64,000 bases of DNA from Dermatophagoides farinae (Eukaryota > Arthropoda > Arachnida > Sarcoptiformes > Pyroglyphidae), in NCBI RefSeq assembly GCF_024713945.1, contig NC_134682.1:1860001-1924000 (forward strand). Reading direction: 5' to 3'. This document shows positions 35,179-39,958 of the stretch, piece by piece. A program made the position numbers and the translations under genes. The first letter of the stretch is position 1. Each line of letters begins with the position of its first letter. Under the pieces are notes generated by a model that was not told where the DNA came from, did not search any database, and saw only the letters and a list, made by a program, of their open reading frames with translations.

Positions 35179-36581
35179 GATGTTCGGGTTCGTTGTTCAA
35201 GGTAATTATCACACAAAATAACTAAATGTTATGCTTTCTTGCATATATGAATGCATTGTGTGGTGTGGTGTGGTATGTTGTGATTTAGTGTTCAAATCAA
35301 TTCGATATAATCAACTGGTTGGTTTATTTATTTATTTTTTTTCAAAAAAAAAAAATTATTGTCTATTAAAAAAAAATTTATAGATGAAATTGTTTGACAA
35401 GGTCAGAGTTTGGTTGACAAGGTCACATAAACATACACGACATTTAAAATCAATATATAACTGTGTGTGTGTGTGTGTATGACAATATATGATAAATAAA
35501 TTAATGTTGAAGGATACAACAACACAAACAACAGTGTAATAAATCCTTTCGTTTTTACATTTGATAATAATATTAATGAATTTTAAATGGAATTCAATGA
35601 ATTTCTGAAGTTCGAGGACATTTTGTTTCAACAAGAATGTGTAATTCACACACACACACACACACACTTTGATCATAATCATAATTCCATTCATCATTGA
35701 TGAAGGTTATATTTTTTTTTCCTTTAAAACAAAAAATTGTCACCTTCATCTTGTACGTACATATATCATCATCATTATCAATTAATTAAGTAGTTTATGA
35801 TCCATTAAGAATCAATTGACATGATTCGATTATTCAATGATAACAATCATCAAATATGGCAAAAGATGGTGAAAAAAAGAGATAATAGTTATGAATCATT
35901 ATCTACTATTCTATGACGCTAACGTTTGTGTGTAACTGCAACTTTTACACTCGCCAAGTGCTTGCACTGTGTAATAGCACTGTGTATTAACTTGGCATTT
36001 AATGCGGCGAAGCTGAGCCGGTAATTCCTACTTATTTTCAGTACAAACATAACTATTTAGTATGAGCTACTCAGTGTGTGTGTCTGAGCATGCGGGAAAA
36101 CTTTTGAATGCCGCTGAACAGTTCGTCCAGCTCAGAAGTAGAAGTCGCTTCCAAAGAAACGCATTCTGTGGTATGTAGCTTTGACAAAGCTTTTTTTCAT
36201 TGTTCTAGCTCAGCACACTTTGCTGCAGATTTTGCATCCAATAGATGGTGCAGTCATTCAATAGAACATAGAAAGAGTTAGAATTCGAATTTTTCGAATT
36301 GATTATTGTGATAATACATGTGTCACACGTGATTTTCATTTTGTGTGCCTGTGTGAGTGTGTATTTGATGATGAAATCTTGCCTTGAAGACTGCATTTAT
36401 TGGAATGATTTTTTCTGTTTTTGTTTCCATGATCTATGATCTACTCATCGTTTGGTAAGTTATTTCGGTTATTTAACCTGATTACACCTTAAATACCTGA
36501 TAACTTTTTTCATTTAAAATAAAGAAAATGGAGCATTTACGATATTGCAAAAAGCCACAGCGGTTGACGATTCAATGTTGA

Positions 36582-37064
36582 GTGTCTTCATGCGATGAAC
36601 CCACAAGGTTATCCTATAGAATCTATAGACACAAACTTGGATTAAACATTGGATCGATTATCATGTTCAGTCGCAATATTGAACCACAAAGTGGTTTGCT
36701 AAATGGCATGCGTTTATTTGTAAATAGACGCAGCATTGAAGCTCGAATATTGACAAGGAGGCTATGATTCATTTGGCAGCAAAACGATCGAGATCTTAAG
36801 CTACCATTTAAATTGGTGCGTGGACGATTTCCTGTCGTATTGGCTTTTGCTCTGACAATTAATTAATGTTTTAAGGGAAATCTTTCGATAAAATAAGTGT
36901 GTACCTTCCTACACCAGTATTGCAACATGGAATGATTTATGTGGCTTTTTGCCGCTGCAAAAATCCTAATAATCTGAAGATTTTTGTTTAGGAAATTGAG
37001 GGGAAGATCAACAACGACCACAGTATTTATACCAAAAATATCGTATTTCTTCAACTTATCGATT
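36582..37064 (+). pseudogene. Helitron PIF1-like helicase, C-terminal remnant
   Basis: The first open piece (36582-36767) reads LSYRIYRHKLGLNIGSIIMF then SRNIEPQSGLLNGMRLFVNR and RSIEARIL. This matches the region of Helitron/PIF1 helicases that usually reads GSIIMLLRNL..GLCNGTRLIV. After a stop, the next segment continues with DLKLPFKLVRGRFPVVLAFA and LTIN. Another stop follows, then GKSFDKISVYLPTPVLQHGM and IYVAFCRCKNPNNLKIFV. A frame change is needed to recover GRSTTT and YTKNIVF. The usual KSQGQT element between LTIN and SFDK is missing or scrambled. The N-terminal helicase motifs, including Walker A, and the Rep domain are absent. Several stops and shifts mean it cannot make a working helicase. 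The order, helicase C-terminus then 3' hairpin, is that of Helitrons. Confidence 0.85.
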
Positions 37065-37228
37065 AGCAATAATAAGTATGCTGTTCGGTGTACACAACTT
37101 TTTCAAAGGTATCAGGTGCAATGCACAAGTGATGGCTGACCCTGCGGTACCAAACCGAAGGCCGGAAGAAACACGCCGTGCATAGAAACCCACCGTCAGG
37201 CACGAAGCGTTAAAATTGACACCTTTGG

Positions 37229-37447
37229 CTGGATGCCAAGCAGGGGGGGCGGCGCAGCCGACCCCACCTGCGGGTATCCAGTTATATTGACCGTCAAGGA
37301 TTTATATCTTTGACTGGATACCAAGCAGGGGGGCGGCGCAGCCGCCACCCCTGCGGGTATCCAGCTCTATTGACCTCAAGAAATCATACCTTTGGCTGGG
37401 TACCAAGCAGGGGGGGCGGCGCAGCCGCCACACCTGCGGGTATCCAG
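37229..37447. repeat. Three tandem GC-rich palindromic hairpin units
   Basis: Three copies, about 51-53 nt each, start at 37229, 37314 and 37396, so the period is 82-85 bp. Each is nearly self-complementary: CTGGATACC at one end, GGGTATCCAG at the other, with GCAGGGG.GGCGGC and GCCGCC.CCCCTGC between and a GCA loop. Copies differ by a few bases; copy 1 has GATGCC and GCCGACCCC. Spacers share a TATTGAC/TATTGATT-like part. They lie between the helicase remnant and the terminal hairpin and are the most GC-rich DNA in the window. Confidence 0.9.
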
Positions 37448-37491
37448 CTATATTGATTGTCAGGAGTCAGCCCCGCAGGGCCAGCCTGGGG

Positions 37492-37508
37492 CAGGCGCGA
37501 AGCGCCTG
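37492..37508. other. Helitron 3'-terminal hairpin
   Basis: A 7-bp perfect stem with a GAA loop, followed after 7 nt by CTGG and T. This is the expected terminator arrangement for a Helitron 3' end. Confidence 0.75.
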
Positions 37509-37519
37509 TACCGGGCTGG

Positions 37520-39958
37520 TCATTAATATATGTTTCTACCACCAGCAAGGCAACCAAAAATCAATCTTTTTTTATTGTTTCTTGATTTTTTAAAACCAAA
37601 ATGCGCATTATCCTTGCCCTAGATTTTTCTTCCTATCTCATTCATTCCCGGTTTTTTTTCGGTATTTGGATTGAATGAATGAATAAATCGATTATGACAG
37701 CAAGAGTGTTTTTTTCTGTTCTTGTGTGTAAAACATTCACCCACACTCACACACACACACATATCATCTAAATGTTGTTATAGTATTCCGGATGGTTTGT
37801 TTTGATGAAAAGAATCATTTCCCACTACTACTACAAATCTACTACAACTACTAATGATGCATACCCGGAATTTAGAGAGAATTTAGGATTCCGGGCTTTC
37901 AACAAAATTCTGGGCGTCAATTCGACAAAACAAATACTTAAATAGACAGGAAGAGAATGAAAATAAAAAAAAAAATTCACAATTGAAGTGAATTGAACTT
38001 GCCATAATTGTAATCAGGGCCAGTATGCCAAGTGCAAAACAAAACGAAAAAAAGGAACAAGGCCGAAATTTTTTTTTTGGCATGACTTGATATCGATAAA
38101 AAGTGCATTATGAAATTCAAAATTATCAGCAAAAAAAACATGGAATTTTCTCATCATCATCATCGATGAAATGACAAAAAAAAAATTAGAATCTCAAACA
38201 TTTTTTTTCTTTCTACAAATGAAAAAATCCGATTCAAGCCCAGCAGCGTGTGTATCTAATCACGTCGATCATACACATTTCGTGTGTATATGTGAAAAAA
38301 AAGAGAGAGAGATGGAAAAAAATGAAAATTGGCTAAAGAACTTATAACGGTGGATTGAATTGAAATGAAATGAAATGAAATAAAATAAAATGAATGAAAT
38401 CTAGTCACTACTGGATGTATTTATGTGTGTATGTGTGTGTAAATAATAAGCAACTACAATCATGATGATGAGAAAGGAAGAAAAATAGGTCAAATTCATA
38501 CTTACTATACACACACACATTGATGAATGAATCTCAAAGTTTGAATGAATGTTTTAGCTTTATGGCTCCTTCTTCCCGGTGTCTGTGTGTGTGTGTGTGT
38601 GTGTATGAGTGATTTTCAGTTTTACCGTTATTATTCACTTAATGGAGCTACAATTTATATATATTTTTTTTTTGATGACGATTGTCATGACAATCCTGAT
38701 TATGATGATGATGATGATGACGTTGAATTTTTTTTCCTACTTTTTAAAAATCATTATCGAATTCAAAAAGTGGAAAAATTTTTCAAAAGAATGAAGCGGT
38801 CAATGTCGATATTTTAAAATCTTTCGGATTGCTATTTTATGATGATGATGATGATGAAGATGATGATGATGAAGATGATGATGATGGTAGTCTGGTAGGT
38901 TGTTTGGCTTATGGCCGACATAAATCGGTGGCTATGTCGTTGTTGGGTTTTATCATTTTAAGACGGATCGGATGGAAATTTTCTTTCATTGATGACGCCG
39001 ATGACCCCAATTCCATTTCGAATACAATTTATTAACAAGTCGGAAAAAAATTGTTTTTTTTTCACAGAAACACATCGAGACAGAAAAAAAATTATACAGG
39101 AAGATTGATGAAGAGATTGATGATGATGATGATCAAGAAGTGAAATCCATATGAATTCATTATCCATAAAAAAAAGAATTTCAACTGCATCAATGTTTAA
39201 ATGGAAATTTTCATAATCATCATCATCATCATAGGAATGGTAGTTGAATTTTTCACTAAAATTTTCACTAATTGAAATGGAAAAAATCACTAATGATAGT
39301 GATAGATATAAATGGATAGTATGAATGAATGAATGAACGAATATGATTAACCTGATGACCTCAAAACCAGGATATTAAATATTTGAGTGTTGTCGTCGTC
39401 ATCATCGTCGTCGCTGTTGTTGTTATTATTTGGGTTCAAATCGGATTATTATTATTATAATTATTGAAATCATCATTATAACCAGCCATCATCATGATTG
39501 TCATCTTCATTACAAACAAACGATAATGATAATCATTTCATTGACCACAATAATCGAATTAATATACAATGAAATGAAATTTTCGAAATAAAAAAAAATA
39601 TTAAATCAGAGAAGGATAAAGAAAATCGAATCGAATTTATTTTTTATATACAAAAAAAAATATACCAATAGCGCCATCTGACCACAGTGAATCAAAACAT
39701 ATCGAACATTAAACCTGCATGCAGGTAAACAAGTTATAAACAAAAACAACCGACACGTATTTCTCTCTCTTTCTCATTGTGTTTATATTAAAGGTGAGCC
39801 ACCAGGTGATATTATGTGCAAGTCAACATTTTGTATCTTATTGAAATGGTAAATTTCGTTTGTTTTTGTTGTTTTTGGCTCATCACAATTTCGAAATCAT
39901 TGTGCCTTTCAAATTCAAGACATTCCCGGTAAATTGAATCTGAAAATTTGAATAAATT
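37520..39958. other. Non-coding tract upstream of PDCD10
   Basis: AT-rich DNA with (TG)n, (GAT)n and poly(A) runs and no gene I can support. The last 300 bp contain likely PDCD10 promoter and leader features: AGCGCCATCT at 39670-39679, a 14-bp palindrome at 39713-39726, and a short upstream frame at 39846-39932. Confidence 0.5.
39713..39726. promoter_or_regulatory. 14-bp palindrome upstream of PDCD10
   Basis: ACCTGCATGCAGGT is a perfect palindrome about 230 bp before the PDCD10 ATG. A dimeric-factor binding site is possible; the sequence shows only the symmetry and position. Confidence 0.4.

Follow-up and report, generated by a model that had tools for sequence, protein, structure and literature searches.

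Our data indicate that a tandem array of GC-rich hairpins in Dermatophagoides farinae belongs to a canonical Helitron, of whose right end it is a part. The array lies in a 64,000-nucleotide stretch of genomic DNA, referred to here as the window (C6:1860001-1924000 in an assembly of 62.4 Mb and 22 contigs). It is also present in the family copies that carry long RepHel frames, varies between copies by whole units, folds more strongly on the top strand than on the bottom strand, contains compensated changes in its stems, and lies between element bodies and right ends that have been exchanged. We tentatively propose, with a probability of about 0.4 and on sequence comparison, that the array is a right-end module whose hairpins would form on the displaced single strand and help to pause or terminate transposition.

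A canonical Helitron with hairpin units before its right end

The window contains a whole non-autonomous Helitron copy on the + strand (35902..37519; 1618 bp, or 1.6 kb), which starts with TCTACTATTCTATGACGC directly after an A and ends with CCGGGCTGG directly before a T. These bounds are the points where homology among copies begins and stops, and the same A/TC and CTGG/T junctions were found again at unrelated sites in other copies. The left terminal sequence (35902..36003, + strand) is the start that this copy has in common with others, including the short element L067 and the decayed RepHel locus L065/L066. It is followed on the same strand by a decayed remnant of the C-terminal helicase of RepHel (36532..37095, with an approximate right border), by a non-coding left shoulder that is common to the copies compared (37100..37220), by three hairpin units that each have a GCA loop (37229..37281, 37314..37364, and 37396..37447), and by a 54-bp right terminal sequence of type 1 (37466..37519), which is the portion left in the unit-less locus L070. 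Within the right terminal sequence, the terminal hairpin CCAGCCTGGGGCAGGCGC-GAA-GCGCCTGTACCGGGCTGG (37481..37519, + strand) has a stem that extends to the 3'-terminal CTGG, and a gap of 33 bp separates it from the last unit in the window copy.

The ends are consistent across the family. The 5' start is TCTACTAT after an A in 17 fetched array copies, while the 3' end is CGGGCTGG followed by T, with flanks that diverge beyond; among 46 arrays, the base after CTGG is T in 44 and A in one, and one array is without a right end. The hairpin CAGGCGC-GAA-GCGCCTG stops 11 nt short of the 3' end, within the spacing of 10-12 nt seen for canonical Helitrons. We found two diverged terminal types, each with an extended terminal stem. 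With TC and CTRR ends, insertion between A and T (A^T), and a 3' hairpin, the element in the window is a canonical Helitron (Helitron1). Since copies share these ends and a RepHel helicase remnant is present, the array, its left shoulder, and the right end all belong to this canonical Helitron; the element ends thus bear out the preliminary description, which had placed the array within a Helitron 3' region. Two hallmarks of Helentrons and HINEs, the endonuclease and the T-rich target, were absent: a Pfam search at E values up to 0.01 found no endonuclease in the RepHel frame on contig C8, and the target is A^T.

RepHel copies carry the array

We found five genome matches to PF14214. Long open frames hold two of them, and the other three are short or broken pieces, two of which overlap. 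The long RepHel frames, 1244 aa on C7 and 1479 aa on C8, both have an array 3' of RepHel, with two units and a type 1 right end in C7 and three units and a type 2 right end in C8, where the array begins approximately 170 bp past the RepHel stop. The C8 ORF (1474 aa from ATG), searched against Pfam as two protein pieces, matches PF14214 (Helitron_like_N, E 8e-56) and PIF1 (E 3e-48). It contains HAH at residues 552-554 (HUH), Y683 and Y687 (YxxxY), and Walker A at 1025, and the 626 aa of its N-terminal part give a match to Helraiser (7LCC, E 1e-99). The combination that marks a canonical RepHel, that is, HUH, two tyrosines, and a Pif1-like helicase in one ORF, is therefore found in C8, while the window copy retains a remnant only. 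Identity between positions 36532-37533 of the window and the C8 copy is 79% at the DNA level, with the array included in the span.

The C7 and C8 copies are 98.8% alike in DNA sequence, and C7 is frameshifted. They differ by 12 synonymous and nine non-synonymous changes, seven of the latter in codons 33-53, and are identical through a 579-aa stretch (C7:4586097-4587833 and C8:774767-776503). Their upstream sequences are unrelated up to the start codon, and the family left end was not found in the approximately 360 bp examined upstream of the two. A left end does occur together with RepHel pieces at the decayed locus L065/L066.

Composition of the array

As the preliminary description had it, three units of approximately 83 bp run from a first CTGG that starts at 37229 to a last CCAG that ends at 37447. 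TRF reports a single array at 37221-37456 (period 83, 2.8 copies, 87% matches) with a score of 372, the highest among the 54 TRF rows of the window; the repeat spacings are 83 and 83 in one repeat family and 85 and 82 in the other. The description was also right about the GCA loop and about the AT-rich surroundings (24-44% GC in 1-kb bins of the window). Its nearly perfect arms of approximately 25 bp were an overstatement, as there are approximately 21 pairs in 52 nt, interrupted by internal loops and a variable G-run.

The array is not an assembly duplication, as had already been argued, since the unit core occurs 135 times in the assembly at up to two mismatches and a reversed-pattern control has 0 matches. 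Contigs C1-C7 contain the 100 of these 135 places that were listed. The left flanks and the right ends are spread over contigs C1-C10. Contamination is refuted by this spread of unit core, left flanks, and right ends over the assembly. An independent satellite was likewise rejected: for 77 of 79 exact spacer matches, a left flank or right end is no more than 1 kb away, and the remaining two adjoin unit cores. A flank or end is equally near to 91 of the 100 listed unit cores; the other nine are at six places, of which the one that was read is the truncated copy L055. A coding repeat was rejected since 33 of 60 intervals have a period that is not divisible by 3, and for the same reason we take the ORF that runs through the C7 array to be due to chance. 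An Rfam search over 35800-37700 gave no family above its gathering score; the best match on the array, mir-4850, reached 25.6 bits against a gathering score of 93, too low for microRNA membership.

Unit number and right ends across the genome

We counted units by coordinates only, from a left-flank pattern (54 matches) to two right-end patterns (50 and 22 matches). The left-flank pattern, GGCACGAAGCGTTAAAATTGACACCTTTG, lies in the left shoulder, has 0 matches in its control, and extends a few bases into unit 1; it is therefore blind to array-less copies, and the 51 of 54 left flanks with an array are no measure of array retention. Fifty-one left flanks pair with a right end within 1.5 kb and three do not. 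The paired copies (n=51) contain one unit in six cases, two in 27, three in 13, and four in three, while two have longer distances (9.42 units in L022 and 5.63 units in another copy, the latter by coordinates only). The distance is within 0.05 of a whole unit number in 44 of the 51; outside this margin are 1.63, 1.85, 2.73, 2.82, and 3.07 as well as the two longer distances. In L022 (L022:3035-3995), unrelated sequence several hundred bases long splits the first unit. For a cysteine protease at locus L032, the 60 matches listed of 133 were general ones to the papain family. Counts from the arrays that were read (n=46; five with one unit, 25 with two, 13 with three, and three with four) are biased, as the underlying search scored 40 of 90 candidates and favours multi-unit copies; the coordinate count over 51 copies is the better estimate.

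Comparing unit number among copies, as proposed in the preliminary description, confirmed that it differs. A copy with four units (L018) and a copy with three (L010) have identical flanks, and a two-unit copy (L040) is three differences away; one-unit copies with a complete shoulder and right end were also found (L046, L048, and L051). The suggestion of a mini-repeat expanding inside the element fits in part, since copies gain and lose whole units, yet there is no run of more than four units in the arrays read.

Of 72 right ends, 57 have a unit by coordinates: 51 have a left flank, five more a unit core, and one more a spacer. The other 15 comprise four that were read and have no unit and 11 without a unit or spacer match, the latter judged by pattern only. 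Copies lacking the array, which had been named as evidence against its place in the element, are thus a minority; the four right ends that were read with this in mind are all without a unit. Among these four, L067:177-332 (C3:3427800-3428150) is a 156-bp mini-Helitron in which the left end is joined to the right end. With up to three mismatches allowed, the genome contains this junction a single time, and L067 may either have moved without the array or have lost it later. In L069 (C6:2995000-2995350), the left shoulder is joined directly to the terminal hairpin via a shared CGAAGCG; the locus begins after A with an internal TC and is possibly a tiny element produced by template switching. L070 has kept the right end alone. 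L068 (C5:257520-257870) shares only approximately the last 30 bp with the family, a stretch in which CTGG follows one half of the terminal hairpin, and is apparently a different short Helitron-like element.

Helicase remnants compared with C8 at a coverage of at least 0.6 fall into group A (96-99%) and group B (71-81%). Both right-end types occur in each group, type 1 in L012, L013, and L041 and type 2 in L019, L027, L030, and L031 of group A, and type 1 in the window copy, L018, and others and type 2 in L014, L023, L046, L048, and L051 of group B. Since all four combinations are present, bodies and right ends have been exchanged, with the array between them. The mismatch of body and right end in L012, which compared to C8 is 99% identical in its body, 95% in its unit, and 90% in its right end, likewise points to exchange. 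Comparisons of this last kind used the best-matching unit per copy, which favours high identity, while figures over the 46 arrays are means and minima; the mean unit identity to the first unit of C8 is 0.94-0.96 in 28 of the 46 arrays (range 0.88-0.98), compared to 0.71-0.81 for the helicase remnants of group B. Because right ends have been exchanged, unit similarity is weakened as a sign of selection.

Folding of the units and of the terminal hairpin

We found that the array with the terminal hairpin (37221-37520) folds as top-strand DNA with -105.2 kcal/mol; shuffles average -59.5 kcal/mol, and none of 200 is as good (z -12.2). The bottom strand of the same region folds less strongly (z -7.8). 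Folding of the region, a check suggested in the preliminary description, thus gave a structure well beyond that of shuffled sequence. The common unit fold consists of nine pairs, an internal loop, five pairs, an isolated pair between small loops, and a six-pair stem closed by the GCA loop. The terminal hairpin folds as DNA with -19.1 kcal/mol (z -6.7) and has the cap GCGAAGC. A GNA loop is present in 104 of 106 units, which represent 47 distinct sequences: 101 units have GGC-GCA-GCC, two GGC-GAA-GCC, and one GGT-GCA-GCC, and two are without GNA. The cap GC-GNA-GC is thus common to the units and the terminal hairpin. According to the relevant sections of PMC4686876, mini-hairpins with a GNA loop and at least two G-C pairs are extraordinarily stable DNA structures.

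Compensatory changes between copies, which had been put forward as a further check, were found at three stem pairs. In alignment A1 of the 47 distinct units, 99.5% of 835 cells are paired compared to 98.9% after shuffling, and double changes occur at four pairs compared to 0.8 after shuffling, with one shuffle in 500 reaching that number, and slid controls give 0-1; shuffle counts overstate for related sequences and are not probabilities here. One of the four derives from the damaged row L016, which leaves three clean compensated pairs, A-T/G-T/G-C at two and C-G/T-G/T-A at one. The second-site change occurs only on the matching wobble background, with a joint chance of approximately 0.009 by haplotypes and 0.006 by units. 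Templated repair of the palindrome could be an alternative source of these pairs. Stem cells that are not Watson-Crick number 25 G.T, one A.C, and one other among 42 intact haplotypes, after five of the 47 (rows from L011, L016, and L055) were dropped as damaged. An excess of G.T over A.C fits the direction expected if the top strand folds, although it comes from only four pairs versus one. Polymorphic columns make up 9 of 36 paired and 12 of 27 unpaired columns, a difference that is not significant (p 0.12). The background and polymorphism tests used 101 of the 106 units, and the double-change count kept all 47 sequences.

Possible roles of the array

We hypothesized that the module comprises usually one to four tandem hairpin units followed by the right terminal sequence of approximately 54 bp with its terminal hairpin. 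During rolling-circle transposition, RepHel would peel off the top strand, and the units would fold on the displaced single strand and form, together with the terminal hairpin, a platform for pausing or recognition, at which the enzyme would stop and cut at the next CTGG. A small number of units would be enough, and extra units would arise or vanish via slippage or unequal exchange, processes to which hairpins and repeats lend themselves well. A role in pausing or termination, which we infer, fits hairpins that fold on the top strand, have a like cap, lie next to the terminal hairpin, and are present in RepHel copies. In Helraiser, the 3' hairpin is reported to terminate transposition, with more read-through when it is lost (PMC4778049), and cutting and joining in vitro are reported to be precise and to involve the top strand only (PMC5876387). 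Counting against a need for the array are the right ends without a unit (L067, L068, L069, and L070). The single 3' hairpin of Helraiser is described as important yet not essential (PMC4778049). A more composite version seems rather doubtful. Here, the GNA-capped hairpins would be an iterated, strand-specific control region of single-stranded DNA, serving as an iteron-like pausing array for RepHel or as a lagging-strand origin and, in addition, as a switch point for right ends.

Nearly as likely as the pause module is that the array has no function and is a neutral minisatellite that rides in the Helitron. Tandem duplication of a hairpin-prone segment in an ancestor would then have been followed by drift in unit number through slippage or unequal exchange, with exchange between copies homogenising the units. 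Such a course would account for the different unit numbers at the identical flanks of L018 and L010, the shuffling of right-end types between body lineages, the array-less right ends, and the lack of significance in the paired-column test, and tandem repeats are known from non-autonomous Helentrons (PMC7492417, PMC4067079). It sits less well with the finding that both RepHel-frame copies and 57 of 72 right ends have the array, with three compensated pairs on matching backgrounds, and with a GNA cap in 104 of 106 units on a strand that folds more strongly than its complement. That the units are former right ends left behind by read-through, as the preliminary description had suggested, is largely refuted and highly improbable. 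The GNA cap and the CTGG/CCAG stem base are common to the units and the terminal hairpin, but the orientation differs (CTGG...CCAG in the units and CCAG...CTGG at the terminus), the units seen lack the element's right end of approximately 54 bp, and 0 copies end at a unit CTGG followed by T by exact pattern, which misses diverged ends.

Hairpins on the displaced top strand might instead begin its conversion to duplex, as a start for lagging-strand synthesis, which we regard as unlikely. Single-strand origins in rolling-circle plasmids lie just upstream of the nick site, as the array would in a Helitron circle with its nick site at the joined ends. The array is indeed directly before the right end, its hairpins are stronger on the top strand, and its units are redundant; in one model for Helraiser, the displaced strand is where lagging-strand synthesis takes place (PMC5876387). 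However, priming by the host would require no special site, and the sources consulted for Helraiser mention no comparable array in the parts that concern us. Somewhat less likely still, to judge from the sequence, is a role at the RNA level, where hairpins in the transcript might act in stability or 3'-end formation or be a source of small RNAs for silencing. A strong RNA fold (z -12.5) and the position of the array 3' of the RepHel stop (approximately 170 bp beyond it in C8) would agree with this role, whereas the array persists in non-autonomous copies, from which no RepHel is made, has no Rfam match above gathering score, and has a GNA cap that is known as a motif of DNA stability (PMC4686876).

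Relation to known systems

The family addresses the question of how a Helitron recognises its own end and why read-through captures neighbouring DNA. Since related copies have zero to four hairpins and the genome contains an uninterrupted RepHel frame, a dose response to hairpin number is testable, and right ends traded around the hairpin array are a route to new Helitron ends. Like Helraiser/Helibat1, the canonical Helitron1 of bats, the family has a RepHel with HUH, YxxxY, and a Pif1-type helicase, TC...CTRR ends, A^T insertion, and a 3' palindrome. For Helraiser, the description gives a single 19-bp palindrome at a distance of 11 nt from the end (PMC4778049), whereas in the mite family the terminal stem reaches CTGG and usually one to four more hairpins come before it.

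HINE, DINE-1, and Cg_HINE elements have, as here, a short tandem array of varying number between left and right modules and a palindrome in the right module, and copies of Helentrons with tandem repeats include some in a predatory mite, according to the relevant parts of PMC7492417 and PMC4067079. These elements are Helentrons, with subterminal inverted repeats, T-rich targets, and an endonuclease in the autonomous partner. Unlike them, the D. farinae family is a canonical Helitron in which the array is also present in RepHel copies and the units are hairpins; the words hairpin and stem-loop are absent from the text of PMC7492417. Tandem repeats in Helentrons are thus already known, while an array of hairpins at the right end in a canonical Helitron appears to be a new variant, for which a limited literature search found no description.

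FoHeli, a Helitron2 of Fusarium, also has terminal hairpins, some with a GAA loop, but as far as described in the relevant part of PMC5148889 it has at most one hairpin per terminus, inverted repeats, and other termini. Bacterial REP/BIME sequences and TnpA_REP offer a likeness in that an HUH enzyme acts on folded single-strand palindromes after a conserved motif (PMC8266576). The enzyme there is bacterial and the sequences are unrelated, so this likeness may be taken as an analogy only; like the units described here, bacterial REPs occur in arrays, which are composite (PMC8266576, PMC2817692).
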